A DNA stretch of 64,000 nucleotides, from contig CP136065.1 of the NCBI GenBank assembly GCA_032622095.1, positions 22,742,134-22,806,133 on the forward strand. The letters run 5' to 3'. Within the stretch, counting starts at the first letter, position 1; the number at the start of each line of letters is the position of its first letter. The notes beneath the pieces were generated by a model. That model made no database searches, was not told where the DNA came from, and saw only the letters and a list, made by a program, of their open reading frames with translations. A program made the translations under genes and the position numbers. This stretch comes from Siphonodentalium dalli. Its lineage: Eukaryota; Mollusca; Scaphopoda; Gadilida; Siphonodentaliidae. Shown in pieces: positions 20,427 through 56,699 of the stretch.

Positions 20427-20480
20427 TTGGTGTAGTTGTGAACAGTGGTAATCTGGTGGATGTCAAAGGTGAAGTATAAC
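20427..20480 (-). CDS. Exon: Thr/Ser/Pro linker, copy A (between MAM and SRCR)
   Basis: A polypyrimidine acceptor (GGTTCTATTTCAG) and a consensus donor (AA|GTAAGC) bound 54 bases, phase 1-1. It encodes YTSPLTSTRLPLFTTTP plus a Ser from the split first codon. The preceding MAM exon ends in phase 1 (A + GT = Ser) and the following SRCR exon begins in phase 1 (A + AT = Asn). The Thr/Ser/Pro content fits an O-glycosylated spacer between folded domains. The exon is identical base for base to the one at 44128-44181. It has no ORF long enough to be picked by length; support comes from splice signals, phase fit and its duplicate. Confidence 0.82.
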
Positions 20481-20900
20481 CTGAAATAGAACCAAAGAAG
20501 ACACGAAGAATTAGCCGAGGAATGGATCATTACACAGCCAGTCTTAGGGGCGGAGCATAGCTGTTGCTAGGAGACAATCGTCTGATCATATACATTAAAT
20601 TGTTTACAGCCTGTGCTTATACTGGTTTTGACAATCAAAAAAACTTTGTTCTCATCTTAATTAAAGACAGTGCATCTTTTCATAACAAGTTTTATATACA
20701 TGTATTTTCTGGGGTATAAAATAACACATATGAATCGAAGACACCTGTCCGTAAATGGTTTTATCAATTAATTATGATTTTATTTCAATTTCTCAGGTAT
20801 TATACATTCAACCTTATGGGACATACTATTTTTAGAACAGATCAATCATGAAATTTTAGGCGAACTCACGGAAACAATCGGAGCATAGGAAGAGGGAGAA

Positions 20901-21031
20901 CTATGGCTTGTTGCAATTCATCGAAAAGTTCTTCCGTTGAATGGCAACAAGACATAGTTCTGACTAAATCCTGAAATATTACCCATAATTCTGCTGTGGT
21001 TATAAACTTGATTATTCAGGGCCTTACTGTA
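20901..21031. mobile_element. MITE-1, core copy (in duplication A)
   Basis: It runs CTATGGCTTGTTG...CATCG, then ATGGCAACAAGACATAG, and on to CAGGGCCTTACTGTA. The same copy is found in duplication B at 44611-44741. Confidence 0.8.
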
Positions 21032-21601
21032 CGTTACAGGAATAAACCACTTTATTATGCTTTTATAGACAAATAATATACCAAATATTCAGTGTTTTAT
21101 TCGCAGAAAAGGGTATTTGATCTCTTGAAATCGGGTTTTATAAAAATTAAGTTGCAATTGTGACCAGAAAGAGATACGCCATCTTTAATGTATGTAAATT
21201 AGCAAATATACAATAAACAACAGTTATTATAGGCATGGACAAATTCCCAACATCTTTTACATTTACGAACTGTGAGTGCCGGAAAATAGAAATGTGCAAC
21301 ATTTTACAAATTTGTCTATAATTCCATGGTATGCCATGAGGAACAAGTTACACAACCCAGTAAACAAATATTTTAGGCTGGCAGGAATGTTATTTGTATG
21401 TTAAAAATTCTTAGAATTGAGATGGGACACGTGTATAACAAGAAAGTGGTGCGTTGTTGCGGTATTTTATCGGGTTATCCATATTTACGGAATTCCCATG
21501 GCAAACTGGGACTCTCACAAACAATCCGTGAAACTTAACAGTTTTGTTACAGAAGGAGTCCAATTTATTGGAAGGAAATATTTAGACAATAAATTCAACT
21601 A

Positions 21602-22381
21602 GAGGTGTGACTGTCCCAATGGGACTAAGGATACCCCCTGTGATTTTAAAACACTAAGATATTTCATGTCAGTAAACATTTAGTTAAAAATAATAAAATA
21701 ACAGATTCCCATTGCAGGTGCACAACACCTAACACCTAACCCTAATATCCTAAACCTATTGACCGAAAAATGTAGGTATAATAGCTCGGACAAAATTATG
21801 CATGTTGCAAAATGTTCTAAGTTGAAAAAGGGGAATAACTCTCCAAAAAAAGTCAGACAGACCTCATAATTGCAGGTGCACACGTTTCCATGGTACTACA
21901 TATATGTGTCAAGTTTCAAAAACAATGACTAAAATGTAGGAATAAAAGCTTGGACAAAACAATGCACCTTGCTAAACATTTTCTAAGTAAATAAAGGGGA
22001 TAACTCCACCAGAAAAAGTCCGACATATGTCATAATCGCAGGTGCACAGGTTCCCATGGTACTAACTATTCGAGTAAGTTTTAAAAATAAATTAACCTAA
22101 AAATGTGGGAATAAAAGCTCGGACTATACATTTCGTGGAAAATTTCTAAGTCGAAAAATGGGGTAACTCCACCAAAAAAGTCTGACAGACATGTCATAAT
22201 CGCAGGTGCACAGGTTCCCATGGTGGTTGATGTCTACAACAAGTTTCATGGAAAATGATAAAAAAAATGACTGAGAAAAACTCCGTACAACCTTGTGTCC
22301 ACAGAGGGATGACGGATGGATGACGGATGGACAAGCTGATTCTAGTATACTACCCCCTACAACTTTGTTGCAGGGGGTATA
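21602..22381. mobile_element. Hairpin-ended element, family H2 (in duplication A)
   Basis: It begins GGTGTGACTGTCCCAATGGG. It then carries three or four diverged internal units of about 170 bases (GGATAACTCCACCA, AAGTC(C/T)GACAGAC, CATAATCGCAGGTGCAC, TTCCCATGGTACTA) and a GACGGATGGA block. It ends in a stable hairpin (ACCCCCT.CAAC TTT GTTG.AGGGGGTA). Non-coding. H2 is a name used here. This tandem core plus 3' hairpin suits a non-autonomous rolling-circle (Helentron-like) element. Confidence 0.75.
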
Positions 22382-23042
22382 ACAAACATCTTATTGAACT
22401 TATTATCTGAATATCTACAAAGGGAAAACAAGTTGTCAATGAGTATTTAGCATAAAAAGGGCTAAACAAGTTTTGCTCATCAAAGATGGCTTAGTCGAGT
22501 TTTTTGCCCATAAACGTGCATCTGTCTGACCGAGAATCACTAAAATAGACAAAAGTATTAAAGAACCATAACTCAGAACTAAGGGCCAAAACCTCCGGTG
22601 AAAATAAGACTGCTGACTGCTGCCAGCTGCCATGCTTTTCATCGAAAAAATTTCAGATTCGATAGCTCGCATCTACAGGCGATCCTAAAAGACCCTGTAA
22701 AGTTTAAAAAAGAATTCTAATAAATGTGGGCTGCAAGGTGTGTTGATGGATTCATATTTGTAATCCAAGATGGCTGCTGGTAGCCATTTTTTTTTTAAAC
22801 GATCAAAATATATAAAAATAGACAAAGTAAATCCCATGATTATAGTATAAAGATTGGACAAACATGGTTTTCGAACTCAAGCTAGATATTGTTGCAAAAG
22901 ATACCAAATATCATTACATCGGTCAACGTTTGATTGAGTTATCATGGTCTCGCGCCCAGCCGTATGCCCAGTTGCCCACCCGACTGCCCACCTACCGCCT
23001 TGCCAAAGCATAAGTTGAGTTTTTTTTTAAACTTGACTTAAA
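22382..23042. mobile_element. Hairpin-ended element, family H3 (in duplication A)
   Basis: It carries ATAACTCAGAACTAAGG, GGACAAACATGGTTTTCGAA, GATATTGTTGCAAAAGA and TGAGTTATC blocks, a CCCACCCGACTGCCC stretch and a terminal hairpin AAGTTGAG(T)n..AAACTTGACTT. The same blocks form the tandem elements at 47-48.6 kb and 61.3-61.9 kb. A TCCAAGATGGCTGCTGGTAGCC dyad lies inside. Confidence 0.65.
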
Positions 23043-23179
23043 ACTACTGGTGGTTCTCTCTTGATAAAACCAGCTAACGTAATGCTAATTAGAATGATTT
23101 AATCATATTTTATTATCCCTCAGTCAATAAACAAAATGCAAATAGAGATAATACAGTTGGTGACATGGATGAGAGGTGA

Positions 23180-23380
23180 TAAAGGGATCGGAGCACAAGT
23201 TAGGGGTCATCTCAAAACTACTATCGGGATCCCGATAAATATCCTGACAACTATCTTCTAACTTTCCCGATAGATCCCGATAGAGCGGTCGAGATTTCCG
23301 GAAAATATTCCGATACCGCATCTAAATATTCTGATAACATGCCGAGTTCCCGAATATTTCCCGATAAAAGTCTGAAAGTA
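23180..23380. repeat. Clustered CCCGATA motif
   Basis: TCCCGATA or a one-base variant appears about eight times on both strands in 150 bases (for example TCGGGATCCCGATA near 23225). Non-coding. Confidence 0.6.
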
Positions 23381-23859
23381 ATGTAGCGTATTGCCAATAA
23401 CTTTCTGATCATTTACCCATCTATTTCACGAATAATTATGTCTGTTTTGGTAATCGATGAATCGAGCATGTTGTTTTGTTTATATATATGTTTCTTTTTC
23501 CGGTTCATTGTGTTATCATTACTTTTGGATTCGTCCACAGCTTCCTTCGTAAGCACATTTGTATTGGGGTGGAAGCTTGTTTAAAAGCATTACGATAATT
23601 ACTACACATTGGCTTCAAATAGTTGATTTTCAATCGCAGGTAGCTTTCTTTAAACAATATTTGAGAACTATATTGTTCTGCTGATTTACCCCCCACCTGA
23701 TTTGCTCTTATTTTTGGGTGCCATCAGTGTCTAGTAAACAAATCGTGCTTCCAGGATTTCAATTCATCATTCAAGAATAAATTTGTTCTCAAAACTACGG
23801 ACAATAGATATAATTTCTCCCAGAGTATTTTTTCTCAAATCATACTCAATGTAACATTC

Positions 23860-24283
23860 TTAAAATGCAGATAACGAAATGCGTTGAAACATTATTTTTG
23901 AAAAAGGCGCATCTTGCACGTGTTTCGCCTCGCCGCCTACTGACACAAGCAATTCAAATAACCCAACAAACCCTAGCGATACTAGATATATCTGCGATTA
24001 CATTAAATCATGTGCAGAATCAACCTAGAAATACAAAGTACACTTTAAAAAAACTCATTTAAAAAGAACTCAGTAGAACAGTAAACCATAAATATAAAGC
24101 ACATATTTCCAAGCTAGATACTTTGATATTGATTATATAGAGTGTGTTGGGATTACCCATTCATTGTTCTGTACTAGTCACTTTGCATGTTACTGTTATA
24201 TTTTCAGTTTTTGTGTTTAAATTGTTTGGCTGATACCATTGTAATGGTTTGCTTTCAATAAAATCTTGAAATCTTGAATAAAA
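23860..24283 (+). mobile_element. Probable 3' end of a LINE
   Basis: It ends with AATAAAATCTTGAAATCTTGAATAAAA, a tail of short TCTTGAAA repeats after an AATAAA signal. Several non-LTR retrotransposon clades end this way. No reverse-transcriptase frame remains; the 65-codon frame at 23865 is unassigned. Confidence 0.45.
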
Positions 24284-24645
24284 CATAACACAAGTTTTAC
24301 ACTGTCAATTCTTTATTTTTCAAGTCACAATTTGGCGAATTTGCTGGAGGCTATCTAAGTGATAATGCGCAGTGAATGTGTACTTTAGTGATCACACAAG
24401 AACAAAATAATCAGCACTACGAATTGGATGGCACCACATGGGATGTTTCTTCCAAAACCAAGGGGGGAGGTACACGTTTGAGCAATATAGAACTCTAACT
24501 TGGTGAGTTATTTTCACGTAACTAATCATAACAGATTCATTAAGAGTCCACATTTATGGGCAATCTGTTTAAGAAGAGTACATTCCTCTCTAAATATGGC
24601 TATTAACTTTATTGCTCGTGCCTCCTCCTGGGCTTGCATTCTAAT

Positions 24646-25000
24646 CCATATAGTTCAGTGTGAAAGGCTTCCTTTAGCGGCAATATATTATTTTAAAAAG
24701 TATAATACATTTTTCCTTAAAGAAAGCCTGAACACTGAACTATCATAGGTCCCTCCCATGGCGGTGCCATTCCCAACCCCGCAACTCGCCAATCTCCTGA
24801 TAAGAGTCGGAAATAAAACTGAAGAATTCAATCGTGTACAGCGGGTTATATTGGGACGGCTCATGCGTGACTAATCCGGACAAGCCAATGAACGTCGAGA
24901 GGCAACCAAAAAGTTAACCCATTTCCTACTGGTTTACAAAGCAGGACATATATCCATATAGTTCAGTGTGAAAGGCTTCCTGTAGTGGAAAAATCAGGCC
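24646..25000. mobile_element. Foldback repeat with TATAGTTCAGTGT ends
   Basis: CCATATAGTTCAGTGTGAAAG near 24648 has an inverted partner, CCTGAACACTGAACTAT, ending near 24746, giving a 100-base foldback. The left arm recurs in direct orientation near 24955 (CATATAGTTCAGTGTGAAAG), marking a second, partial copy. Confidence 0.7.
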
Positions 25001-25110
25001 ACAAAAAAACAGAGGGATAAATATCAGATAACACATGTGTACCTCAACAAAAACAATATTTATTTGACTGGATAAGAAGTTGACAATACAATGTGTTGGA
25101 TCTCCCTTTT

Positions 25111-25834
25111 TCAAATGACATTTACTATATATTTTGAGACTTCGTATATATGTCCGCTATCGACTTGAGAACTGCTGGGCCGATTGAACCCAAACTTGCT
25201 GTGTAAGGATAAAAAGCCACAGACAGTGGACTCGGATCATTCGCGAGCCCGTGCAACCACTCCTTCACCCTTCAACTGCCACCACAATGGGGATAGATGG
25301 GTTAATCGAGTGATAATTAATGAGTGTTTGTATATGAGGCATTGTTATTAAAGAGCGTTTATCGACTTGAGTGAAAATACAACATTTGACCATCTCGGAA
25401 ACTGGGGATATCGAGACGGAATTTCGTACTTAGGGGTTCCAAGGGACGGGGGAGATTTTCATCGAGTCAGTTTGTCCGCCCAATATGAACCTGACCTTGA
25501 AACAGGTACCCAAAAATAACCTTGGGCGATATCTCGGTCATCAGTGGTGGCAGCGACATGAAATTTGTGACGTATGGTCAACTCGGGATGGGGACTATTT
25601 TGTCGGGTTATTTTATCCACCCAACTTGACCTTGAAGTGGGTACCCGCAAATTACCTTGGACAATATTTCGGGCATCAGCTGTGGCAGCGACATGACATT
25701 TGTTATGTATGGTCAACTCGGGACAGGAAATATTTTCGTCGGGTCAGTTTGTCCACCCTTGAAAAACAAAAATTAATGGATCGACCAAAGCCATGGGACC
25801 AATCCCACCAGTGTCTGGCATATCAGCTAGTATA
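25111..25834 (+). mobile_element. Helitron-like non-autonomous element (candidate)
   Basis: The right end reads CATATCAGCTAGTATA, with CTAG followed by T as in Helitron 3' termini. About 22 bases upstream is a TGGGA CCAA TCCCA stem-loop. The left edge may be a TC near 25111 before ATTTACTATATATTTTGAG. The body carries two tandem units of about 140 bases (GACCTTGAA..GGTACCC, TGGCAGCGACATGA, ATGGTCAACTCGGGA). The 116-codon frame across the units repeats itself and lacks any Rep or helicase motif. Confidence 0.55.
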
Positions 25835-25928
25835 ATATAAAATATGTTGTATTGAATTGTGATATGGGGATTCAAACATTAAGTGGATGTAGCTCTCAGG
25901 ATCATCCAAATGATATCCATTCACTCAC

Positions 25929-26019
25929 TCGCTTGGGTGCATGATCCATCAACAATCTTGACATCATCCAGTGCTATGTCTCCTCTATAGTTTCGTCCTC
26001 GTACAGATTCAAATGCAAT
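25929..26019 (-). CDS. Exon: C-terminal part of the MAM domain
   Basis: A TTTTATTTCATAG acceptor and a GA|GTGAGT donor bound 91 bases, phase 0 to 1. The translation reads [19 protein letters not shown] then VKIVDGSC. This is the canonical MAM end: a FExVRG strand, GDIALDDV, and the last conserved Cys. It joins in frame to the exon at 30752-31173 to complete a single MAM domain of about 160 residues with four cysteines. MAM domains mediate homophilic or heterophilic adhesion in receptors, meprins and related extracellular proteins. Confidence 0.95.
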
Positions 26020-26254
26020 CTATGAAATAAAATCAAATATAAGTTTGCACCTGCTCAATTCAATGGAATCAACAGCGCACATATCTGACTTCCAACATAA
26101 TTATGTTGGTATTGCAATGCAATGTATTCCCTTAGTACAGTGTTCCGCACATTAACATGTAAATGTAAATATTTTAGTCCGTCGTTAATCCCAAAATTAA
26201 TCACTGATTAATTAACGGAATCATTTCACCAACAAGAGTTACAGGTAGAGTAAC

Positions 26255-26381
26255 ATCGGAAAGCTCTCCGGAGAGAGTTTTCCGATGAATGGCAACAAGC
26301 CATATTTCCGACTAAATCCTGAAAAGTTACCCATAATTCTGCTGTGTGTTAAAGAAGTCAATTACTTATTACATTACTGTA
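26255..26381. mobile_element. MITE-1, half copy
   Basis: It runs from a short GGAAAGCTCTCCGGAGAGAG palindrome, through ATGGCAACAAGCCATAT, to CATTACTGTA. One arm remains. Confidence 0.85.
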
Positions 26382-27239
26382 CTACATATAACTTAGGACA
26401 TTAAAAATAAATACCTGTGTTCTCAGGCCATTTACATATAGGAATTTGGATGAGGGAGGAAGGCTTTTTATTTTAATTAAGAAATTAATAGTCCATGTGT
26501 CAGCTGAGGCAAGGTGTCACCCGGAGAGGGAATTTATGGCACTTATGTTTTCTTGTAGGCCGATAACTGAAGTTTCACGATCCGGGTTTCGCAGAGACGT
26601 AACAGGACGCGTTTTTTGGATGCAGCTGATTTTCAGAAAAACTTTACCTCGATTTTTGTCATTTTTCGAAAATGACAAATTTTAACTTTTCATTATTAAA
26701 CACCAGACAGAGAAATGATCCACGATTTTTTGTCTCACGATAGTTTAGACTTGAGTGCTGAATAAAATGAAATAAAAAACAACGCCAAGTTTTACGTATG
26801 CGTGACGTCATGCTCGTTTGAATTTCATTTCGTGCATTTTTTTTCTTGACGATTCAGGCAAACGACCACATTTCAATCATTGTAGAATTCGCATTTGATG
26901 AAACGTTGAATTAATTTGCATATCATATGAAAGTACATTCACTTTGCGTCACGAAAGCCAAACATTGGCGTCTGTGGTATGAACTGGGGCGGGGAAAAAA
27001 TTAAAAACCTTACCCTTCCCCCAAACGAGAACATTTGCTCGTATGACTCAGATTTAGCTCAGGCTCGTTTTAAACTAATCGGGCATGATACCTGAACCTA
27101 TTATACCATTTAGACACATTGGACTCTTGTTATATAGTATACGTTGCGATAATTAGTATACTTATCAATTGACTCTGTAGTCATATACATGCAAATGTAC
27201 ACATATGCATATATACATGTATGCGTATAACCATATCAC
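26382..27239. other. No gene seen
   Basis: Intronic AT-rich DNA. The 79-codon plus-strand frame at 26446 has no family match. Confidence 0.45.
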
Positions 27240-27249
27240 ATAATACATA

Positions 27250-27980
27250 TATAGTCCGGGAGCTAATAGGGGTACCCTAGCACCCACAGGACTTAACTTC
27301 ACCCCACTCATTTTGTTCCTTTTTATGTACTTCAAATTTTAAACAGTGTTAACAAGAACAAAAAGTGGCCGTTTAAACTCCAGACAAGATGGCGTCCATC
27401 GTGGCCGCCGTTTTTCAGACAAGACCCTAAGTCAGTGTTATGCAAATTATAGTGGGAAAATCAAGTAAAATGTATACAAATGTATATATTTGCGTGAAAC
27501 TAAGACATAATGACACATTTTTAGGGCAAAATTGAAACTCACCATCCAATATGGCCACCAAAAATGGCTGCCGGAAGTAGAAAATATGACGTTTTTTACT
27601 AATATCTTCTAGATCAGTTCATGCTGTTTGGAACTGGTTGAGTAATATGACTTTATTTTGTGTTTTTATATTAACTGATCATTGGAGCAATTCAAGATGC
27701 AATTATTAGGGTCATAGCCCCTTCCAATCCCTCAAATATTTGTTTTTACAGAACGTTGTATAAAATTTCACAAAAAAAACATAACTGGGATTCTAGTCAT
27801 ATTTCAATAAGAAATGAACAGAACCTTGTAATATAAGTGAGGCATATCATTACCTATGAATATTCCAACTCGCTGTCTAGAGCCAAAATACTTACTTTGG
27901 CTCAAAATGGCTGCCAACATGGCCGCCAAAATATGGAAAAAGGTAAATATTGCTCCAGCATGTCCTGCAATCGCTTTCAA
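27250..27980. repeat. ATGGC-dyad element segment, sibling of 63340-64000
   Basis: It shares the ordered phrases AGGACT(T/C)AACTTCACCCCAC, AACAAAAAGTGG and GACTCCAGACAAGATGGCG-type sequence with the right edge of the window. CAAGATGGC/GCCAAAATGGC-type dyads lie near 27393, 27550 and 27900. No transposase frame was seen. Confidence 0.6.
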
Positions 27981-27999
27981 GTTGTGGTTCATATATACA

Positions 28000-29395
28000 A
28001 ATCAAAGAGTGTCTCAATGGTCATATGTGAGGTGAATCAGTATACAGTGACCGTACGATGTATGGTTGTGGCCGATGTGACCGTATGGGGATTAATGTGG
28101 TGTATGGATATAACGAGAGTATCTACATGGATACCCGTGTGTTGTTTATGTATATATGGAGTGACTGTATGTCGTGGTGTCCTTGTGGTAACGGGTGGGA
28201 TATATATTTATATATCCTGTGGATGTATTATCATTGGTGGGTGTGTAGGGATTAGCTGTATGATAATGGATGGCGTGTATGATTATACAGTGAGTTGCTG
28301 CATTGTGAGGTGTATATGCAAGTATGGAAGGTATGAGTGGTCGTGTTTTTGTATATCTGGAAGGGCTGAATGGCCATTGGTGAGGTGTACATATGTATAC
28401 CTGGAGTGACTCTGTGGTCTAGGGCGGGCTGCATAGCCAGCATATGTATATATCAAGTGATTATATGACTATGTGTGTCGAATATGTATACATGTAATGA
28501 CTGCATGGTCAATGGTGAGATGAGTAGATAGACAAGGAGTGGGTGTATGGTCATAAACGTAATGCATATGTATACATGGAATGGGAGTGATTAAATGGCC
28601 ATGTGCCAGGTGTATGAGTATACCTTGTGTTCCTGCTTGGTGACTCGTGGCGGCATGTGTGGGTCATACGGGTATACACACGTGGCTGTATGGTCATGGG
28701 TAAGGGGTATGTGTATATAGCGAGTGGCAATATGGCCATGGATGATGTGCATATGCATACATGGAGTGACAATACTGACATGGTTGGGGTGTATTAGTAT
28801 ATCTTGAGTGGCTATTCGGCTATGGTGTGACCAATAGGGATACGGGAGTGACATGGCCAATGATGAAGTGGATATGAATACAATGATTGACCATGGTCAT
28901 GTACAAATGTTTTGGATAGGTACACATGGGTGACTATATGACTATAGGTTAGATGAGTGAGTATACCAGGTGCCATTGGTGATGGGCTGAGGGCATGTGT
29001 ATGAAGTCAGTGGCTATAGGGCGATTTGTGAGGTGCATATGTATCCTGGAGTGTTGTGGTGTAACTGGTGTTGATGTATATATTGAATGTATTTGACCAT
29101 GTGTGTGGGGAATTATGTATACATGGATGATCGTTTGACCAATGATGAGGTGAATGGGTATACAGGGAGTGACTATATGGTTATGGGTCATGTTTATGAG
29201 TATACCCGGTGTGCCTACATTGTGACTCATGGCTGTATGGTCGTCCGTGGCATGTACGGGTATAACCGAGTATGGCTGTATGGTCATGGGCCAGGTGTGC
29301 GTGCATATAGTGGATGACTATAGTGTTATGTACACATGTGGTATGTATGTATATATGGAATGATTATGTGATAATGCGTGGCTATCGCTTTCCAT
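28000..29395 (+). repeat. Diverged minisatellite array (60-72-bp unit), forward orientation
   Basis: A unit of the form GTATACATGGAGTGACTATA, TGGTCATGGGTGAGGTGTAT repeats about 20 times with much divergence. It keeps the strand open for 190 codons at 27837-28409 (Cys/Tyr/Val-rich), which is a repeat shadow. Confidence 0.82.
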
Positions 29396-29499
29396 GTTTA
29401 ACGTTCCCACGTTGTACATAAACACCATCAAGATGGAGAACTCTCGGACATGACCTCTCTATTGATTAACATATTTTTAGTTATTGTGGATATCCACAC

Positions 29500-29742
29500 A
29501 AGGTTCACACATACAACCAAGCCATTACCTCAGCCACTCCATATCTGCTTAAACACGACACAAATGACAATTTAGTCACCCACTTTATACATGTACGCCT
29601 GACCATGCAGCCATACGTGGTTAACCCGCCGTACGTACCACAAATGAGGATACAGACATGAATCACCATACATGAACACCAGGTATACTCCTACACCCGA
29701 CACATGCTCATATAGTCACTCTATGTATACCACATTCAAGAC
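29500..29742 (-). repeat. Same minisatellite in inverted orientation
   Basis: Read on the minus strand it gives GTATACATAGAGTGACTATA, GAGCATGTGTCGGGTGT, GTATACCTGGTGTTCATG, the same unit order as 28000-29395. The two arrays converge on a non-repeat centre at about 29396-29499. Confidence 0.78.
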
Positions 29743-29880
29743 CGTTTCTATATAAAGAGAAATTGTTCCTGTTAACTTTTGCCAAGGGTGCTATGGGATA
29801 TTTTGGGCTGGTTTTGTCACGATACACTTTTCGATTTAAATACATTTACAAAAGTGGCTTTTTCGCTAAATGTATATAAA

Positions 29881-30026
29881 TATAAGAATTAACTGTCATG
29901 TGGACTGTTTTTATGGAGTGGTCATAACTTGTATGTAAAACCCTTTGGGTTTTACACAAGTTATGACCACTTGCCTCACGGTTACATCTCCATAAAAACA
30001 GTCCACATGACAGTTAATCCTTATAT
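29881..30026. repeat. Long hairpin (imperfect palindrome)
   Basis: The arms are TTAACTGTCATGTGGACTG and its inverse CAGTCCACATGACAGTTAA, plus TGGTCATAACTTG and CAAGTTATGACCA. They meet at GTAAAACCC TTTG GGTTTTAC near 29942. The right arm carries an extra 18 bases (CTTGCCTCACGGTTACAT). Likely a foldback element or part of one. Confidence 0.85.
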
Positions 30027-30059
30027 AATGTGCATGAAGCACACAGAAGGGCCGAGCCG

Positions 30060-30400: not shown

Positions 30401-30751
30401 TCGTTCAAAGTGTACATGCGACTAATAAAGTGTTCCGTCGCGCATCCAGTGACAAAAATAGAGAAGCATGACCATTCCATTTCTAATATAGAAATGAGAA
30501 CTTGTTCATGACCGCGGACACTAGAAAGTAACAAAGAACATTTATATGCCTGTCATTTTGTGACAGGCAACCCCCTAGTATAATAAATAAATGCAATGAG
30601 TCTCGATGGCGAAATGATTTGTGTTAGTTTATCACCCATTGTTGCATCCAGAGTAGAGATCTAAATATTTACAATAGAGCGTAGTTCAGACGATGTTTTC
30701 TATGGAGTATCAAATCTGGAAAAAGTACATCCAAAAATGACATAAACATAC

Positions 30752-31173
30752 CCCATAACTGGCAGGAGGATTGATAGTGACTGTTCCTTGAATCCATATG
30801 TTGCCCTGATTATACGATCTTGACCAGATTGGGTTAATGAAGGTCGTCTGTCTGTTATTCATGAAATACACATTGAGTGTTCCGATATCGATGCCATACA
30901 TATGATAATAGAACTGGACGCATTTCGTCCCACCGTTGGTATTGGTGTACATCGGACTAAGGATTCTAGCCATGTCGTTCAGTCTATGAGGTGCTGATGC
31001 TTCAGCATACACATAGTGGCCTCTCTGTGTGCCGTAAGTGTGATCTAATTGTGGACCGGTGGACACAGATATGGTGCTGCCGTTGTGGTATGTCCAGTCA
31101 TACTTGTCTGTTTTGTCTTGATGATAGTTACAGATTGTAGCCGCCTCAAAGTCGCAGACTGTTGGATTATTAT
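30752..31173 (-). CDS. Exon: N-terminal and central MAM domain
   Basis: A TTTTATTGTAG acceptor and a GGG|GTATGT donor bound 422 bases, phase 1 to 0 (140 codons plus the split first one). The translation starts DNNPTVCDFEAATICNYHQD, the CdFE...C opening of a MAM domain. It continues with DWTYHNGS, GHYVYAEAS, ARILSPMY and GTKCVQFYYHMYGIDIGTL, the signature CxxFxYHMxG strand, then WIQGTVTINPP. Cys residues 1, 2 and 3 of the four MAM cysteines are here and the fourth is in the next exon. The preceding linker exon ends phase 1 (A + AT = Asn). Domain identity is secure; the ligand is unknown. Confidence 0.96.
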
Positions 31174-32363: not shown

Positions 32364-33194
32364 ATGAAAGTGTCAATGACACTGTAGCTCAACTTTGTAA
32401 AGAAGGTAATTTTTTTGTGATGCGCAATGAATAGAGATTAAAAAGGAGTGTAAAAAATGAGCAGTAAAGGATTTAGTCATGCATACACAGAGTAAAATCC
32501 AAGATGGCTGCTGGCGGCAATGTTTTTTGGCCGAATGACCCCAAAATGACTCATTCCCATCTACATGTCATTAACATCCATGACAAATTTTATGATGATC
32601 AAACTAAAGCTACGACCTGTAGCCCGTGCTAAAGGATTTAGTCATACAAAGAGTAAAATCCAAGATGGCTGCTGGCGGCCAGGTTTTTTGGCCCAATGAC
32701 CTCAAAATGATTCGTTCCCATCTACATCTCATTGTTAACATCCATGACAAATTTTATGATGATCAGACTAAAGGTACGACCTGTAGCCCGTGCTAAAGGA
32801 TTTAGTCATTCAAGGAGTAAAATCCAAGATGGCTGCTGGCGGCCATGTTTTTGGGTCGAATGACCCCAAAATTACTCGTTCCCATCTACTCGTCAATATT
32901 AACATCCACGACAAATTTCATGATGATCAGACGAACAGTACGACCTGTAGCCGGTGCTAATGGATTGAATATTGAAATCCAAGATGGCCGCTGGCGGCCA
33001 TGTTTTTTTCCGAATGACCTCAAAATGAATCATTCCGGTCTAAATGTTGATGTCAACAGCTATGACAAATTTCATAATGATCCGACCAAAGGTACGACCT
33101 GTAGCCTGTATTGTTGACGAATCACGCACACACGCACACGCGGACGACAAAGCGATGGCAATAGCTCAAACTTTACAAAGTAAAGTTGAGCTAA
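32364..33194 (+). mobile_element. Tandem-core element, family H1 (pearl-like), complete copy 1
   Basis: The left end is TGAAAGTGTCAATGACACTG then TAGCTCAACTTT. The core has four units of about 160 bases (unit starts near 32501, 32661, 32825 and 32981), each with AAGATGG(C/N)..GGCGGCCATG, GAATGACC(C/T)CAAAAT, CTCGTTCCCATCTACATGTC, CATGACAAATTT, GATGATCAGAC and GTACGACCTGTAGCC. A (CACACG)(CGGACGA) tail ends in a perfect hairpin, AGCTCAA.CTTTAC AAA GTAAAGTTGAGCT. The two ends are inverted (TAGCTCAACTTT). This matches the bivalve pearl / DINE-1-like Helentron architecture. No protein is encoded. Confidence 0.8.
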
Positions 33195-33515: not shown

Positions 33516-36500
33516 TGAAAGTGTCAATGACACTGTAGCTCAACTTGGAAAGGGAATAATTTAATGTATTACAGTCAATGGAGCGATTAGGAATGTGGAA
33601 AGTTGAATGTCTAATACTATACATGAAGAAAAAAGTAAAATCCAAGATGGCTGCTGGCGGCCATGTTTTCGGACGTTTGACCCCAAAATGAGTCGTTCCG
33701 TTCCCATCTACATGTCATCGTTAACATCCATGAACATTTTTATGACGATCAGACTAAAGGTACGACCTGTAGCCTGTATGAATTTAGTCATACAAAGAGT
33801 AAAATCCAAGATGGCTGCTGGCGGCCATGTTTTCGGTCGAATGACCCCAAAATGACTCGTTACCATCTACATGTCATCGTTAACAACCATGACAAATTTT
33901 AAGATGATCAGACTAAAGGTACGACCTGTAGCCCATGCTAAATAATTTAGTCATACAAAGAGTAAAATCCAAGATGGCTGCTGGCGGCCATGTTTTTTGG
34001 CCAAATGACCCCAAAATTACTCGTTCCCATCTACATGTCAATATTAACATCCATGACAAATTTCATGATGATCAGATGAACAGTACGACCTGTGGCCCAT
34101 GCTAATGGATTAAATTTTGAAATCCAAGATGGCCGCTGGTGGCCATGTTTTTTGTCCGAATGACCCCAAAATGACTCGTTCTCATTTACATTCCAATTTC
34201 AACAGCCATGACAAATTTTATGATGATCAGACTAAAGGTACGACCTGTAGCCCGTGCTAAAGGAATTAGTCATACAAAGAGTAAAATCCAATATGGCTGC
34301 TGACGGCCATGTTTTTTGGCCGAATGACCCCAACATAACTCGTTCCCATCTACCTGTCATTATTAACATCCATGACAAATTTTATGATGATCAGACTAAA
34401 GGTACGAGCTGTAGCCCGTGCTAAAGAATTTAGTCATACAAAGAGTAAAATCCAAGATGGCTGCTGGCGGCCATGTTTTTTGGCCAAATGACCCCAAAAT
34501 TTCTCGTTGCCATCTGCATGTCAATATTAACATCCGTGGCAAATTTTATGATGATCAGACTAAAGGTACGACCTGCAGCTCCTGCTAAAGAATTTAGTCA
34601 TACAAAGAGTAAAATCCAAGATGGCTGCTGGCGGCCATTTTTTTGGCCGAATGACCCCAAAATTACTCGTTCCCATCTACATGTCAATATTATCATCCAT
34701 GACAATTTCATGATGATCAGACAAACAGTACGACCTGTAGCCCGTGCTAATGGATTAAATTTTGAAATCCAAGATGGCCCCTGGCGGCCATGTTTTTTGT
34801 CCGAATGACCCCAAAATGACTCGTTCACATCTACATTCCAATTTCAACAGCCATGACAAATTTTATGATGATCAGACTAAAGGTACGACCTGTAGCCCGT
34901 GCTAAAGGATTTAGTCATACAAAGAGTAAAATCAAAGATGCCTGCTGGCGGCCATGTTTTTTGACCGAATGACCCCAAAATGACTCGTTCCCATCTACAT
35001 GTCATTATTAACATTCATGACAAATTAGTCATACAAAGAGTAAAATCCAAGATGGCTGCTGGCGGCCATGTTTTTGGGCGAAATGACCCCAAAATTACTC
35101 GTTCCCATCTACATGTCAATATTAACATCCATGACAAATTTGATGATGATCAGAGTAAAGGTACGACCTGTAGCCCGTGCTAAAAAATTTAGTCATACAA
35201 AGAGTAAAATCCAAGATGGCTTCTGGCCGCCATGTTTTTTGGCCAAATGACCCCAAAATTACTCGTTCCCATCTACATTAGTAGAGTCGCTTATATCAGA
35301 TTTTGGGCTCCCGTGGGAAATGCATGAACAAATATAGAGACCATGTTCATGAGCCAGTACATGGTCTCTACTTCAGAAAAACATTTGTTAGACCCCCTGG
35401 GGTCGCGACTGGGTGGTCTGATGACGTCACAAAGATGGCCGCCATGCTCATTTTTTTAAGTTCGCCATTGTTAGATTTCATGATAAAAATATAATTTTGA
35501 TATAAAATAAATGACAATCCTTTTGTACCGTGTATGGTGTGACGCCATGTTATAGTTTTATATAAAAATTTGTCCTCTCGATCAAAGATGGCCGCCAAAA
35601 TGGCGATCGGAAGTGGGAAATTTATGATTGTCCATACATGTCGCCTACATCATTTCCGATTGTATCGAACTGGTGACGATTAGGGAATATACTTCTCTTC
35701 AATCTTGATAATAACTCACTTAGGCATCATATTAGTTGATTTCTTGAATCATAACCTTGATTGTCTTCTCAAAATGCGATGATTTAAAGGAATTGGTATG
35801 AATTTCGCCAAAATATACTTCTTTATTTTCTAACTATATCCTTATAGAAATTTAGAAATAATCGATGATGGAAATGGGTATGATCATTACATAAGGTATT
35901 TACTTGTAACTAGTTCCAGAAACTGTCAACTTAATCCAAGATGGCTTCCAAGATGGCATCCAAATACGTTTCTGTCATGTAGAAGGTGAATGTAGTATAC
36001 TAATTTGCTTCTTCCAATTAAATATTCGCCATGCTACGGCACATTCATAGTAGTTGTCTTTCCGCAATGACTCAATATGCGAGTTCATATCACAATTATT
36101 TTCCAAATGAGCATCGTGAAAATTCGCCAAACATTATATTTGCACACGTCAACTAACATGTCCACAACAGGAGAACGATATCTCGTTGTTAGATATATGA
36201 ATGAATGTACTCCGATTTAGTTTATCCGGAGTTATTAATATCTCATTGTAATCGAGATGGCCGCCAATGTGGCGGAAATGGCGAAATTTGACATTAAAAT
36301 AGATATATTTCCGAAATATATCACAGCGTGCAAGAAAGGTACATACGCATATCATTATCATACATGGGCTTTCGGTGAGAAATATATAAAACTGAAATAT
36401 ATGTTCAAGCACGTTAAGTATATGGACTTGTGCCAAACTTAATTATGATATTATATAAATAATTTAATAGAGACCTACGTGGTATGTGGATATAATAGAG

Positions 36501-39500
36501 AAGTTTCCAACTTCAGGCGATGTCAGCTACCGATGATCAAATCATGCATGTGATCGCCATACGTTCTTGCATATCGATAACGATTGAGTTTATCTACTCG
36601 TATACTAAAAGGTATAGCGACGGACCCAATCAGATTACTGTATATAGCTAACAGTAGCTGGCTTTTGAAGCCTGAAATTGAATATATAAACCAGGAGATC
36701 GCCCGAGGCATTGTTAAGATATTCTAGCTATACTTTATTATTTTTCATTTCACCATGATACATGTATACCGCCGGTATAGTCTTGGTAGATGAACGAGGT
36801 TGGATAGTCTGTCGAAGTTACACGGACGTTTTCTGACATAATATCCATAAAAGTCTTCGTAAAATCAATTCTTGTATGGGTACTCTTGGCGATTGGAATG
36901 GAAAATCGACACAAAATGATCAGAAACCCCATTCTACCATTCTGGCAAACATATGTGTAGGAAGAAATGTTGATGATTGCCTCATGCTTAGACTGCTTCT
37001 TGTTACCAGTTCATACTAAGTACCGCTACATTTCCACACGTGCATTACTATGACGACCAAGATGGGATCTTGACAAATTTGAACAAGAACTCAACCAATA
37101 TATTTACTTGTATTACAGCGATATTAGCATATTTATGTATCACTACAATGACTACATGTATGTACAAATGTATATAATTAGTTTGTTTCATATACAAGTA
37201 GCGCTAATGTGTATCTGGACCATAATACTATAGTTAGGTGGGGTGAATATAAAATGATTCCCGGAAATTACTCACATAAGGCTGCACAGTTGATGTCGAA
37301 TCCGGTCCACGATTAAACGTATACTAATATGTTTTGTATTATTCATGGAATAAATACTGTTTGAACTAAAGTCTATCTGATCAAACTGGATTTATTTTCA
37401 CGTGAACATGTATGTAGCTCTGCGTACCATAGCCTCACCATGACCGTGTTCTGCTGAAGTTAATCTATATATGCCACTTGGTTGGAGGATTATCAAGATG
37501 CATGAATGCAGCATGATATATACAATTTATGGGATATAGCCAGACTGATCTGATAACTCCTAGTCGAATAGAATTGGAACAATTTGAGTCATTAGAATAT
37601 ATATGGATCGGCCTATATAATATGATCTGAAAGATGCCATTATTATATTGAACCATGGTCACCTCCGTAGTTACGCGTGCTAATTCAACTTTTCCTTCAT
37701 TTCCACATTTCCTTTGGTTCATGATAACGTTATAACCAGAATCAACATGGCACGTCATGAGCTGTTATTAACTCCAAATATTACTTCACATTATGTAGTA
37801 AGAAGTTAGTGGACTGCGTTGCCCCATACTGTCATTCAGTATTAAGAACCTGGATTCCAGAGTACATTGGACATAATAAATCAAACTGATGACATGAGAC
37901 CGGAAGACCCATCACTACCAATGGACGTTTCACCCGTTTCCCATACATTGTGTGGTCGTACAGTTTGTCAAAACGCGGGAATTAGTATCATAATAAGTAT
38001 CGCCTGTCTATTTTTGGCTCGCATCTATTGCGCTTACCATTCACATTCTTTCGTCATCTAAGCTGCATGGTTGTATATGCAAAGCAGTTGCGCAGTCCCT
38101 GTTGATTTCGATAAACTTCAAAATAACCGCTAATCAAGTGCGACCGGCAGCACAGTCATAACCATTGCCCATAACCACTTTCCTATTAAACTGATGTACA
38201 AGCGTAATGCATTGTCTCGCTAAACTTTTCACATGCCTAAATCATAGAAATCAATATGGGATATTAGTTTGCTGTATACTATCAATGGTCCATACCGGCC
38301 TACCGTGTTCATGCCAAGCCACCTTTCGTATATTGGGCGAATCACTTTGTGTGGCTACCACCAATTAACTGAACACGAAGCCAAGAACCAGACATTCCAC
38401 TTCGCCCATTTGTGGGGGTCTAGCCTGGTGTATGGTAATGTTCATTTCAACAGAATAACATGTCCTGTGGGGTCAATAACTTCTATTAACTTTTCAAAAC
38501 TCCACATTTGCAATGAAAGTGGTTGGACTACTTTGGTGAAAACAATCATCCAGATTTCAGAACCTGGTATTCACAATATATCACTTTAAGCTTGACACGG
38601 GACACTACCGCTTATACGGATATTTTACCCACATATGGGTGTCTATTCTATTTTGATCTGTCGTGGTTATCAATACGATTGAAACCTGCTAAGTTCAGCT
38701 AAACGAGGTTCAAATGGTGTTGCCATGCAAATTTAATTAAAGGTTTCAGCGCAACCAACAGTGAGACAAGCAGGCAAAATGACAGCCATAGCATTAATTC
38801 TACTATTGTTTGTGTTTTATAAACAAGGATGTGTTGTTTCTTGCTATAGCTGAGAAGTACAATCCAACTTCATAGCTATCACAATAAACAATTACGTATT
38901 GCTACCTGCTATGATACACTATATGCATTTTCTACCGATATGTCACGACAACACTAACGATTAACTGCATCATCAATTACCATATTTGATATGGTAAACA
39001 CCAATACTTCTCACTTAGTACTTTGGCTTAGGGTATAGCACAGAAGTCTAGACATTGAAATAGTAACACCTGCCCATCCCAAGCTAAGATGGCGGTATAA
39101 GATACTTTCTAATTTCACATAGTGAGTTGGATTTTCTCTTTATCACCCTCCTCTCTTAATATCAGGAAATTTGAAGAAATGCCGCGTATGCCGTATAGGA
39201 CATCGCTAATGTGTATAAGAAATTAAAGCTATGCGCATTTACTTAAAAGTAGCCGATTAACCTAATTCCCCATGATGGAATGCCAGGGCAACATTTGGTG
39301 ATGTACCGTAACGAACACTGACTTTTATATTTTGACTGCCATTTTGGTAGCCATATTGGATGAAATTGAACAGTTTTGTTGAAGTTTGATAATAATTTCG
39401 TATGTGGCACGAATACTTCTTTCCCATCACTGAATGCCGCTCATTTCTTTAAATATATTGCTACAATATCGGAATTAATTTTTGACAAGATGCTATAATT

Positions 39501-40804
39501 CGATTTTCTAAAGTGGATTTTTGACAGATCGAACATGTTTTGTACAATACATTTGGTCACCACATTGCTGAAGCAATAATTAAAAACAGAATTGTCACAA
39601 TTCGCAGTCGATACCAAACTGAAGGTCATTTACATGAGATTCTTGAAAATCGCAAAATTGTTGATTTTTTAGTGGTATTTTGGCAGCCATCTTTGACTGG
39701 AATAACATTTTCCCGTGAAATTGGGTACTGTACTTCGAGAACTACTATTGATGATTTGCCCTTACTGAAAAAAGAATGTATAAAAATTAAGAAATTTGCG
39801 CTGAATTCGTCAGTTCTTATGACAACCCAACATCTGAACTGAACTGACAATGACGTCATCTTTGTGACGTCATAATTCTCTCCAGTCGCGGACCCATGAA
39901 GTCTAACAAACTTTTTCCGACAAAGTAAGTGATACCCTATCATAATATCATAGTCTCTACATTTGTTCAAAAAATTCCCACGAAAGTACATAAGCGACTC
40001 TACTACATGTCAATCTTAACAACCATGACAAATTTCATGATGATCAGACGAACAGTACGACCTGTGGCCCGTGCTAATGGATTGAATTTTGAAATCCAAG
40101 ATGGCCGCTGGCGGCCATGTTTTTTGTCAGAATGACCCCAAAATGACTCGTTCCCATCTACATTCCAATTTCAACAGCCATGACAAATTTTATGATGATC
40201 GGACTAAAGGTACGACCTGTAGCCCGTGCTAATGGATTTAGTCATACAAAGAGTGAAATCAAAGATGCCTGCTGGCGTCCATGTTTGTTGGCCGAATGAC
40301 CCCAAAATGACTCGTTCCCATCTACATGTCATTATTAACATTCTTGACAAATTTTATGATGATCAGACTAAAAGTACGACCTGTAGCCCGTGCTAAAGAA
40401 TTTAGTCATACAAAGAGTAAAATCCAAGATGGCTGCTGGCGGCCATGTTTTTGGGACAAATGACCCCAAAATTACTCATTCCCATCTACATGTCAATATT
40501 AACAGTACGCCAATATTAACAGTACTATCAATATTAACAGTACGCCCTGTAGCCCGTGCTAATGGAATGAATTTTGAAATGCAAGATGGCCACTAGCGGC
40601 CATGTTTTTTTACCGAATGACCCCAAAATTGATCATTCTGGTCTAAATGTTGATGTCAACAGCTATGACAAATATAATAATGATCCGACCAAAGGTGCGA
40701 CCTGTAGACTGCATTGTTGACGCCTTACGCACACACGCACACACGGACGACGGACGACAAAGCCATGGGAATAGCTCAAACTTTACAAAGTAAAGTTGAG
40801 CTAA
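33516..40804 (+). mobile_element. H1 tandem-core element copy 2, split by a 4.7-kb insertion
   Basis: The left end TGAAAGTGTCAATGACACTG is at 33516 and the terminal hairpin at 40773-40802. Eleven core units run from 33643 to 35278 and about four more from 40009 to 40714. Alternating unit subtypes are visible: a GCCCGTGCTAAAGGATTTAGTCAT type and a GCTAATGGATTAAATTTTG type. Removing the insertion leaves an element of about 2.6 kb. Many 60-120-codon frames here are unit shadows. Confidence 0.85.
35279..40003. mobile_element. 4.7-kb inverted-repeat element of unknown class
   Basis: The left end TAGTAGAGTCGCTTAT is mirrored by ATAAGCGACTCTAC at the right end. The inversion continues inward with GTGGGAA..GAACAAAT.TAGAGAC, then GTTAGAC...GTCGCGACTGG and GACGTCACAAAGATG, so the arms are at least about 170 bases and probably several hundred. 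TACAT (or CTACAT) flanks both sides, and the uninterrupted H1 unit has a single copy (CCCATCTACATGTCAAT), so this is a target-site duplication. AAGATGGC/GCCATCTT dyads recur through both arms. Interior frames (62-106 codons) match no transposase, integrase or polymerase I know. Confidence 0.85.
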
Positions 40805-40943
40805 AAATGACTGAGAAAAACTCCGGACAAATTTCTGTCCACGGACGGACGATGGACGACGGACGTACGATGGACGGATGACGGACGGACAGACGAGCTG
40901 ACTCCAGTATACCCCCCTAACTTCGTTGCGGGGAGGTATAATG
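40805..40943 (+). mobile_element. H2 element, right fragment
   Basis: It resumes the H2 sequence interrupted at 33515 (AATGACTGAGAAAAACTCCGG), then a GGACGGACGATGGACG microsatellite-like block, and ends in the ACCCCCC.TAACTTCGTTG.GGGGAGGTATAA hairpin. Confidence 0.85.
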
Positions 40944-40974
40944 ATAAATACATACACCATTACTTCAATAATAA

Positions 40975-43708
40975 TGAAAGTGTCAATGACACTGTAGCTC
41001 ATCTTGGAAAGGGAATAATTTAATGTATTACAGTCAATGGAGCGATTAGGAATGTGGAAAGTTGAATGTCTAATTAAGAAATAAATACACGGTGTAGAGG
41101 TGTGTATGGTCAAGTTGTACCACAAAAAACAATCAGTTTTTTTTTTGGTACAACTTGACCATACACACCGATACACCGTGTATTTATTTCTTTTGTAATG
41201 CGACTGAAAGTTTATGGTCACAATTCGACTGAATAGTCAACGAAATACTGCGCTTTTTCGGTCTCAGGTGAGAAAAACTTTCGTGGTGTAATTCGTATTG
41301 GGCGTACTCAGTTTCTTTGCATGGAGTACTCTGGTAATGTCTTGTCTTGTTATGAAATTCCCCCGTTGACTTTTCGAGGCACCTCTTCTAGAAATAATCG
41401 TTGTGATTGGCTAAAAAACGATGTGTTTTCAGCGGCGCCCGTGCGTTTCATTTAAATTGTACAGGACATACGATTGCGGTCATTTCTGTTTTGAACGTTG
41501 TTGGGACAACATGAATATATGATCATCGACTATGGACCAATTTCCTTGCACAAAGCGATCTAAATGATCTAGTTTACTAAACTAATCTTATTCCCCTTCT
41601 GTACTGGTGAACAAACGCTTTCATTTTCAACTTGATTCCGAAATATCGAATATGATCGAGATTCGAATCGACGAATGCACAGCCCGGCCCCATGGATTTA
41701 TTTTTTCATTTAATATACTTATTAAGTAACTTTCTTTGGTCGTAACATATATCAATATACCATAACATCATTTGGACCATATTCATTGGCAACCAAACTG
41801 GTTTCAAGCGACAAATCGCTAGAAAATTCGCAAGATTGTCAAGATGTAGAAACATTCAAAGGGTTACGGGTGCGTGTGTACTCCGTTGATGCCCCGTTTG
41901 CGCGGAGTTAGAAAAGACGGGAAAAGTCGCGTGCGGCGATCTGAATAAACCTATTTTTTTCGTGGTACAATTGGAAAAAGTAGAATTGTACCACAAAACT
42001 GGAACGAGATACCCATGGTAACTCGGGCCACTGGCCAATCAGGACATGGCTGTTAAGCATAGTTAGGCAGGGTCGTATTACAATACTAGTTTATAGACAT
42101 GAAGAGAAAAGTAAAATCCAAGATGGCTGCTGGTGGCCATGTTTTCGGCCGAATGACCCGTAAATGAGTCGTTCCCATCTACATGTCATCGTTAACATCC
42201 ATAACAAATTTTATGACGATCAGACTAAAGGTACGACCTGTAGCCCATGCTAAAGAATTTAGTCATACAAAGAGTAAAATCCAAGATGGCTGCTGGTGGC
42301 CATGTTTTCGGCCGAATGACCTCAAAATGAGTCGTTCCCATCTACATGTCAATAATAACATCCATGACAAATTTCATGATGATCAAACGAACAGTACGAC
42401 CTGTGGCCCTTGCTAATGGATTAAATTTTGAAATCCAAGATGGCCACTGGCAGCCATGTTTTTAGTCTGAATGACCCCAAAATGACTCGTTCCAATCTAC
42501 ATTCAAATTTCAACAGCCATGACAAATTTTATGATGATCAGACTAAAGGTACGACCTGTAGCCCGTGCTAAAGGATTTAGTCATACAAAGAGTAAAATCA
42601 AATATCGCTGCTGGTGGCCATGTTTTTTGGCCAAATAATCCCAAAATGACTCATTCCCATCTACCTGTCATTATTAACATTTATGACAAATTTTATGATG
42701 ATCAGACGAAAGGTACAACCTGTAGCCCGTGCTAAAGGATTTAGTCATACAAAGAGTAAAATCCAAGATGACTGCTGGCGACCATGTTTTGTGGCCGAAT
42801 GACCCCAAAATTACTCGTTCCCATTTACATGTCATTGTTAACATCCAAGACAAATTTCATGGTGATCAGACAAACAGTATGACATGCAGCCCGAGCTACA
42901 GAATTTAGTCATACAAAGAGTAAAATCCAAGATGGCTGCTGGCGGCCATATTTTTTGGCCGAATGACCCCAAAATTACTCGTTCCCATCTACATGTCAAT
43001 ATTATCATCCATGACAAATGTCATGACGATCAGACGAACAGTATGACCTGTGGCCCGTGCTAATGGATTAAATTTTGAATCCAAGATGGCCACTGGCAGC
43101 CTTGTTTTTTGTCCGAATGACCCCAAAATGATTCGTTCCCATCTACATTCCAATTTCAACAGCCATGACAAATTTTATGATGATCAGACTAAAGGTACGA
43201 CCTGTAGCTCGTGCTAAAGGATATAGTCATACAAAGAGTGAAATCAAAGATGCCTGCTGGCTGCCATGTTTTTTGGCCGAATGAACCCAAAATGACTCGT
43301 TCCCATCTACATGTCATTATTAACATTCTTGACAAATTTTATGATGATCAGACTAAAAGTACGACCTGTAGCCCATGCTAAAGAATTTAGTCATACAAAG
43401 AGTAAAATCCAAGATGGCTGCTGGCGGCCATGTTTTTGGGCCAAATGACCCCAAAATTACTTGTTCCCATCTACATGTCAATATTAACATCCATGACAAA
43501 TTTCATGACGATCAGACAAAACAGTACGCCCTGTAGCCCGTGCTAATGTATTGAATTTTGAAATGCAAGATGGCCACTAGCGGCCATGTTTTTTTACCGA
43601 ATGACCCCAAAATTGATCATTCTGGTCTAAATGTTGATGTCAACAGCTATGACAAATTTCATAATGATCCGACCAAAGGTACGACCTGTAAACTGCATTG
43701 TTGACGCC
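40975..43708 (+). mobile_element. H1 tandem-core element copy 3, interrupted and 3'-truncated
   Basis: The left end TGAAAGTGTCAATGACACTG and the leader (ATTACAGTCAATGGAGCG) match copy 2, then break at about 41074. The leader resumes at about 42090 (ACATGAAGAGAAAAGTAAAATCC) and ten core units follow to 43700. The element stops in TGTTGACGCCTT and continues directly as segmental duplication B, so its tail and hairpin are lost. Confidence 0.82.
41075..42090. mobile_element. About 1-kb insertion inside H1 copy 3, with a terminal hairpin
   Basis: Comparison with the uninterrupted leader at 33610 places the extra DNA here. Its left end is a near-perfect hairpin: AGAAATAAATACACGGTGT..GGTGTGTATGGTCAAGTTGTACC (41078-41124) against its inverse (41143-41191), separated by about 18 bases of A/T. 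A second short palindrome, GTGGTACAATT...AATTGTACCAC, lies near 41962. The rest is more GC-rich than the arrays and shows no recognised frame. Exact edges and any target duplication are uncertain. Confidence 0.6.
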
Positions 43709-44127
43709 TTTCCGACTAAATCCTGAAAAGTTACCCATAATTCTGCTGTGTTTAAGGAGTCGATTACTTAGGGCATTACTGCTATATGCCATGTAATCCC
43801 AATAACAGTTATCACCAGGTTTTCCTATGCAAATTATAACAATAAACTTATTTACATCATTTGTTTGTGGCAATTACGTTTTCCTATTTAAAATTTTGTT
43901 AAAATACTAAATATCATATTTAAATGACTTTGAAATATACATGTATTGAGTATATGGCCTTGCTATAAAGCCATGCTCATCAACATTTATCACCAGGTTT
44001 CCCTTTGCAATCTATATAGACGCCACATTCCCTTTTTCTATCACGTACATGTACATTGGCTGGTCTGATTTCGGACCAAATGCGTTGGCGGTTTGTGCAT
44101 TGGCTGATTCTCGCATAAATTGCTTAC

Positions 44128-44181
44128 TTGGTGTAGTTGTGAACAGTGGTAATCTGGTGGATGTCAAAGGTGAAGTATAAC
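44128..44181 (-). CDS. Exon: Thr/Ser/Pro linker, copy B (between mucin-like repeat and MAM)
   Basis: The 54 bases are identical to the exon at 20427-20480, with the same TTCTATTTCAG acceptor and AA|GTAAGC donor, phase 1-1. It joins the Thr-rich exon upstream (G + GT = Gly) and the MAM exon downstream (A + AT = Asn) without a frame change. The encoded YTSPLTSTRLPLFTTTP would extend the glycosylated stalk just before the MAM domain. Intact splice signals and zero coding differences suggest either a very recent origin or selection on both copies. Whether both copies are spliced into one transcript cannot be told from sequence. Confidence 0.75.
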
Positions 44182-56662: not shown

Positions 56663-56699
56663 TGGTAAATGAACCGATTACACTAACCTATGTTCAGAA

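Follow-up and report, generated by a model that had tools for sequence, protein, structure and literature searches.

DMBT1 (human salivary agglutinin/gp340) is, by analogy, the nearest working model for the gene described here. Excerpts of two papers describe Ser/Thr-rich SRCR-interspersed domains (SIDs) of 20-24 residues between its SRCR domains, which carry most of the potential O-glycan sites and presumably adopt an extended form, and a unit number that differs between people and goes with bacterial binding (PMC3100851, PMC5435793). The first of these excerpts places the SRCR domains in group B, each encoded by a single exon (PMC3100851). The binding 11-mer of DMBT1 is given, also in excerpted text, as GRVEVLYRGSW. 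A second point of reference is intragenic exon duplication, for example at the Gr39a locus (excerpt of PMC2204066). We analysed a 64-kb window of the Siphonodentalium dalli genome (C5:22742134-22806133 of 2.2 Gb in nine contigs, among them C5, C7 and C9), which holds a predicted gene with MAM and SRCR domains. In this gene a 54-bp linker exon lies on both sides of the first MAM domain, and we consider it likely (probability roughly 0.83) that about 3.1 kb around the linker exon between this MAM domain and the SRCR domain, a type I exon as defined below, was copied upstream within the gene, in frame.

Like DMBT1, in which unit number varies within one gene, the window gene has short Ser/Thr-rich linkers between globular domains. 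It is nevertheless not a DMBT1: its linkers separate MAM and SRCR domains, the linker exon appears to have been copied without a globular domain, and its SRCR domain is split over exons, in contrast to the single-exon SRCR of DMBT1. The nearest MAM or SRCR matches before and after the window SRCR are MAMs. This is unlike the DMBT1 order of tandem SRCR-SID units and then CUB, SRCR, CUB and ZP, where for CUB and ZP the comparison covers the window. An 11-residue stretch in the window SRCR exon (6528-6675) resembles the DMBT1 binding 11-mer. In intragenic duplications such as that at Gr39a, as in the event proposed here, an existing exon and flanking intron are copied inside their own gene; the present copy differs in being dispersed (about 23.7 kb), in lying across a whole domain from its source and in being a symmetric linker. 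Enteropeptidase and an SR-C-like scavenger receptor are similar in the sequence of the MAM domain, the part compared. Extracellular domain shuffling favours phase 1-1 exons. No paper on the window gene stood among the literature matches listed, which consisted of titles and abstract starts.

Usually, an exon gained by duplication is recognised as such only long after it arose. We regard this locus as a clear and well-resolved example of that known process, made unusually visible by sister genes: the sequence shows a likely donor, the copy with its two junctions, two sister genes in which the copy is missing from the matching place, and two parallel linker duplications in the family. How a segmental copy became an in-frame spacer is thus open to testing by RNA and population data.

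Results

Identical linker exons on both sides of the MAM domain

Comparison of the window with itself and a search with the exon gave two linker-exon blocks, and no further one in the 64 kb. Their exons are:

20427..20480, minus strand: linker exon copy A, type I, 54 bp, phase 1-1, coding (S)YTSPLTSTRLPLFTTTP(N), in the MAM/SRCR interval, the usual type I place
44128..44181, minus strand: linker exon copy B, type I, 54 bp, same sequence as A, between the TTTKAP linker exon and the MAM domain

A preliminary description of this DNA had called the two exons identical, splice signals included. We observed the same: 54 of 54 bases agree, both exons follow the acceptor GTTCTATTTCAG, an AG behind a pyrimidine-rich run, and both precede the donor GTAAGCAATTTATG, where 14 bases are the same. 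Both read, in phase 1-1, as xGT YTSPLTSTRLPLFTTTP A. At the substitution rate of the surrounding block (1.9%) the probability of no difference in 54 bases is 0.36, so that two identical exons call for no particular explanation.

The neighbouring exons are predicted as follows:

54523..54782, minus strand: upstream ("N-terminal") exon, phase 2 to 1, matched once in each C5 gene and without a Pfam hit
49232..49411, minus strand: TTTKAP-repeat linker exon, 180 bp, phase 1-1, weak donor GTTTTG
30752..31173, minus strand: MAM exon 1, phase 1 to 0
25929..26019, minus strand: MAM exon 2, phase 0 to 1
6528..6675, minus strand: SRCR domain, first half, phase 1 to 2, known here from this half alone

In the predicted order along the minus strand, the N-terminal exon is followed by the TTTKAP linker, B, the two MAM exons, A and the first half of the SRCR domain. 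Spliced in this way the exons give 402 codons with no stop, and 384 codons, still open, if B or A is omitted. This bears out the earlier proposals that both copies are in frame and that linkers bracket the MAM domain, whose exons (31173-30752 and 26019-25929) lie between A and B. The chain is a prediction from sequence, and additional exons of the gene may have been missed. Judged from phase and order, A and B are predicted to share one transcript and B would be included in the mRNA; the 18-residue spacer is probably glycosylated.

The MAM exons match Pfam MAM (PF00629) over profile positions 1-157 of 158 (E 1.2e-40; 139.4 bits against a gathering score of 26.4). The best similarity match was MDGA1 (5oj2, E 3.3e-42), and the domain also matches the SR-C-like scavenger receptor 8yt7 (E 1.9e-26) and enteropeptidase (E 3.7e-21). 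The SRCR exon matches positions 3-41 of 100 of the Pfam profile (E 1.8e-13); its frame closes after position 46, and a donor marks the end of the predicted exon at position 41.

The exons lie in near-identical blocks

We examined the surrounding block at 16 loci (A, B and L001-L014). In the window its coordinates are:

19846..23110, minus strand: block A, the part common to A and B; homology to other gene copies continues past both ends
43709..46825, minus strand: block B, which appears to be block A copied in trimmed form, 159 bp being deleted just beyond the donor
20247..20405, minus strand: 159 bp that A has and B lacks; L002, L006 and the C9 copy L011 have it too, as a gap of matching size indicates

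The description of two near-identical blocks of 3.1-3.3 kb was confirmed (A 3.3 kb, B 3.1 kb, about 97% alike). Over an alignment of 2732 columns they are 96.6% identical, with 54 mismatches and 13 gap openings; another 401 columns are 98.8% identical, with 5 mismatches. This similarity is beyond chance (BLAST E = 0). The A-B distance in six segments is 1.6, 2.4, 3.1, 1.6, 2.0 and 1.2%. B is shorter than A at both ends, and its 159-bp deletion begins about 20 bp beyond the donor.

Sister genes lack the block before the first MAM domain

The N-terminal exon has four C5 matches at 96-100% identity, which we number genes 1 to 4, the window gene being gene 4. The window gene belongs to a set of four near-identical predicted multidomain genes on C5, which all have a Thr/Lys/Ala/Pro linker exon as well as MAM and SRCR modules with short Thr/Ser/Pro phase 1-1 linker exons between them. 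The matches of gene 1 to the window run from 54999 to 47191, from 47093 to 46824 and then from 40978 to 31154, with no block between, and gene 3 follows the same outline. In these intervals of genes 1 and 3 (5.4 and 6.9 kb), only short repeat matches to the block were found, of up to 183 aligned bases. The two intervals have in common stretches of 130, 493 and 563 aligned bases (96, 97 and 91% identical), which gave no window hit of at least 200 bases; about 50 bp of the 130-base stretch is a repeat that also occurs near 7.6 kb. Gene 2 passes from window position 47305 to 15051, and MAM1, A and B are all absent together. Since genes 1 and 3 match both flanks and yet hold an older interval without B, these data argue that B was gained, and therefore that the older interval was lost and B stands in its place.

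A is the nearest relative of B in four of the six block segments (S1, S2, S4 and S7), and in a tree of 20800-21740 (10 rows) the two are sisters with support of 90/91, not starred. For 22250-23110, where 2 of the 16 loci passed the length filter, we used distances in place of a tree. B lies before the first MAM domain, in direct orientation and in the same gene as A. As in intragenic exon duplication, an exon and its flanking intron occur twice in one gene in the same orientation, the second copy is absent in the paralogues, and the frame is kept.

Thus the segmental duplication proposed earlier agrees with the blockless place in genes 1 and 3 and with the relationship of B to A. Its reading as exon gain by copying intronic DNA does not fit: the block carries an old exon at 13 of the 16 loci, with the same splice sites and frame on C5 and C9, so the event would be exon duplication and not exonisation, the rise of a new exon from non-exonic sequence. 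The suggestion that the event was caught early holds in a relative sense only, as A and B differ by 1.2-3.1% depending on the segment, a range overlapping the divergence among the gene copies.

Junctions and proposed mechanism

The edges of B and the adjoining satellite (no strand assigned) are:

43700..43712: left junction of B, where the satellite tail meets the block with a 2-bp TT overlap
46818..46830: right junction of B, where the block meets an interspersed repeat, again with a 2-bp TT overlap
42110..43690: 164-bp satellite array adjoining B; other arrays at 32482-33106, 33630-35026 and 40003-40707

At the left junction the satellite tail (...GACGCC TT) is joined to the block at TT CCGACTAAATCC, and at the right junction the block (...CATAT TT) is joined to the repeat at TT AAATTGAGC. 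The right-flank repeat extends about 50 bp more in genes 1 and 3. No target-site duplication was seen at B when the junctions were read by eye. The junctions fit end-joining or template switching, not transposition.

We propose that a stretch of about 3.1 kb holding the type I exon of copy A, which lies between the first MAM domain and the SRCR domain, gave rise to a copy in direct orientation about 23.7 kb upstream, in the intron that precedes that MAM domain. Joining would have been by end-joining or replicative template switching, as the 2-bp overlaps and the lack of a visible target-site duplication suggest, and older sequence at the insertion place would have been lost along with the arrival of B. 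In-frame splicing is expected, because the copied exon is symmetric (1-1), the intron is in phase 1 and the splice sites are intact. The result would be an 18-residue, probably O-glycosylated spacer on either side of the MAM domain. Local satellite expansion may have set the stage for B. Four 164-bp satellite arrays lie upstream of the MAM domain, and genes 1 and 3 seem to have one in the matching stretches.

Two linker types in the gene family

The linker exon was found at 13 of the 16 block loci and not at L004, L008 and L009, although other block parts remain at L004 and L009. Type I comprises A, B, L002, L006 and, on C9, L011 and L012. Type II is 54 bp long at L001 and L007 and 24 bp at L003, L005 and L010, and on C9 it includes L013 and L014. 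All 13 copies keep the AG acceptor, the GTAAG donor and an open frame, the sole length change being one 30-bp in-frame deletion. This deletion is the same in the type II exons of three genes (L003, L005 and L010), by shared descent or by conversion between genes.

In a tree of the exon and downstream intron (12 rows, B being excluded for its deletion), a branch with 97/93 support splits types I and II. C5 and C9 copies stand on each side, so the types predate the C5-C9 split. Going by order along the contigs, an SRCR match follows type I at A, L002, L006 and L012, and L011 is followed by L012. An SRCR match precedes type II at L001, L003, L005, L010, L013 and L014, and none was found before L007; a MAM domain follows at L003, L005, L007 and L010. 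After L013 and L014 a weaker SRCR match comes first, then MAM, and after L001 a weaker SRCR match was the only one seen before a further, near-identical SRCR match. B is the positional exception among type I copies in that MAM comes next.

Beyond C5, the N-terminal exon has one match on C9 (80%, query 1-331 of 341). MAM copies at 93-95% occur at seven further C5 places and one C7 place, and four short partial matches also lie on C7. SRCR exons at 97-100% occur at seven C5 places, the window included, and two C9 places, with eight more at 72-78%. The MAM copy of gene 1 at C5:20449216-20449647 has one TAA inside the profile match and is possibly a decayed module or an intron read through. A dense cluster of MAM matches lies at C7:93.42-93.80 Mb (best 150 of 285 candidates scored), and the MAM copy at C7:93626690 shares 93% DNA identity with the MAM exon of the window.

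Alternative explanations

Several observations weigh against a simple copy of A into a sister-like site. In segment S5b, B is nearer to L006 (1.3) and L010 (1.5) than to A (1.6); in S5_near5, B-L005 is 1.7 against 2.0 for A-B; and in S4, A is nearer to L006 (2.2) than to B (3.1). The near-upstream tree supports A+B at 72/0 only, and the S7 tree groups B with L006 (45/0), A+B not being rejected (p-AU 0.474). With such mixed nearest relatives, the donor, which we take to be A itself, may be another type I copy, or conversion may have acted. The sister intervals of 5.4 and 6.9 kb are partly different DNA and not a clean empty site. The right flank of B is a repeat, and what ties it to genes 1 and 3 is its position and its identity (93 and 92%, compared with 86-91% for most other listed full-length copies of the repeat). 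The two-base overlaps at the junctions are within chance, and use of the exon in mRNA is predicted from DNA.

We consider it very unlikely that nothing was gained and that gene conversion from A overwrote an old linker exon, or a type II block of old standing, at the place of B. A type II linker does stand upstream of other MAM modules (L003, L005, L007 and L010), and upstream block segments look homogenised across types. B, however, lacks the flanks common to type II blocks and A, its homology ending sharply at 43709 and 46825; genes 1 and 3 have no block of the family between the TTTKAP exon and the first MAM domain; and A and B are the only copies in the window. In-place conversion of a type II exon was rejected on the same blockless sister genes and missing type II flanks. 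We also rejected type I-MAM-type I as the ancestral order, the C9 type I copies L011 and L012 having no MAM or SRCR match in the 30 kb searched between them and grouping together.

That the linker is not an exon, its open frame and splice sites having arisen by chance, appears highly improbable. Between A and L001 or L007, nonsynonymous (N) and synonymous (S) divergence are alike (N 0.195, S 0.20-0.26), with no sign of amino-acid constraint, as this explanation would have it. Against it, splice sites and open frame are kept in all 13 copies, and the linker phases match the MAM and SRCR neighbours.

There is hardly any chance that the block is a mobile element moving the exon about. Its middle (query about 729-1514) is indeed an interspersed repeat with 82-85% matches on all nine contigs (40 of 21260 rough candidates scored), and several block copies lie near satellite arrays. 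The exon itself, though, was found at 8 places by a 60-mer search and at 13 loci in all, each on C5 or C9 beside domains of the family, and B shows neither a target-site duplication nor the constant ends of a transposon-carried exon, its ends being unlike those of other copies.

An assembly or haplotype artefact is scarcely credible, even though B is known from a genome assembly and tandem repeats adjoin it. B differs from A by 59 substitutions in about 3.1 kb, carries a private deletion of 159 bp and has junctions unseen in other copies, and its right flank matches those in genes 1 and 3, which makes misassembly unlikely.

Parallel changes in linker exons

Linker exons have also changed elsewhere in the family. 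In gene 3 (L028-L029, C5:22154159-22159809) the TTTKAP exon is tandemly repeated with its introns, giving two complete 180-bp exons, a further one that lacks the usual end and donor, and a fragment. The weak donor GTTTTG recurs in gene 2 and one gene 3 copy, and another gene 3 copy has GTTTTT. In gene 2 the TTTKAP exon is 159 bp long, one 21-bp unit shorter. On C9, the type I blocks L011 (C9:88193170) and L012 (C9:88158764) lie in series, 34 kb apart. Two stretches of these blocks are 94.6-96.9% alike, and the pair groups together with support of 90/86 and 92/95, not starred. No MAM or SRCR domain was found in 30 kb between them (best tblastn E 3.6 for SRCR and 6.4 for MAM), about 1 kb (88190501-88191499) lying outside the search. 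By sequence comparison, L011 and L012 are a separate duplication of the type I linker exon. Together, the changes in gene 3, on C9 and in gene 2 suggest that linker exons of this family come and go repeatedly.

Type I and type II copies on C5 differ at 10-13 of 54 exon sites and at 13-16 of the next 99 bp (B left out), and in the 120 bp upstream there are 3-13 differences (median 5.5 of 20 pairs, L006 highest). Across 20300-20600 and the matching places in L001-L014, this amounts to a type divergence of about 20% in the exon, 15% downstream and 3-11% just upstream of the acceptor. The history of the block thus appears to change abruptly near the acceptor; on our reading, conversion acted upstream of it. 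It is a speculative and on balance doubtful idea that in this receptor-like family linker length before the first binding module evolves fast, has been altered independently and in different ways (by B in the window gene, by tandem copies of the whole TTTKAP exon in gene 3, by one 21-bp unit fewer in gene 2 and by doubling of type I on C9) and was kept since a change in spacer length alters reach or glycan load. As part of that idea, the positional identity of linkers may be under selection, because types I and II stay about 20% apart while the intron just upstream is homogenised. We rejected selection on the linker exon as a demonstrated result, the counts being small and N about equal to S between types.

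Other features of the window

A minus-strand open frame of 323 aa at 4251-5222 has weak, sub-cutoff Pfam matches (Baculo_FP_2nd, E 0.0052) and is perhaps retroelement ORF1-like. At 55997-56663 lies a 44-bp minisatellite of about 15 copies, with minus-strand open frames of up to 418 aa and a period that is not a multiple of 3.

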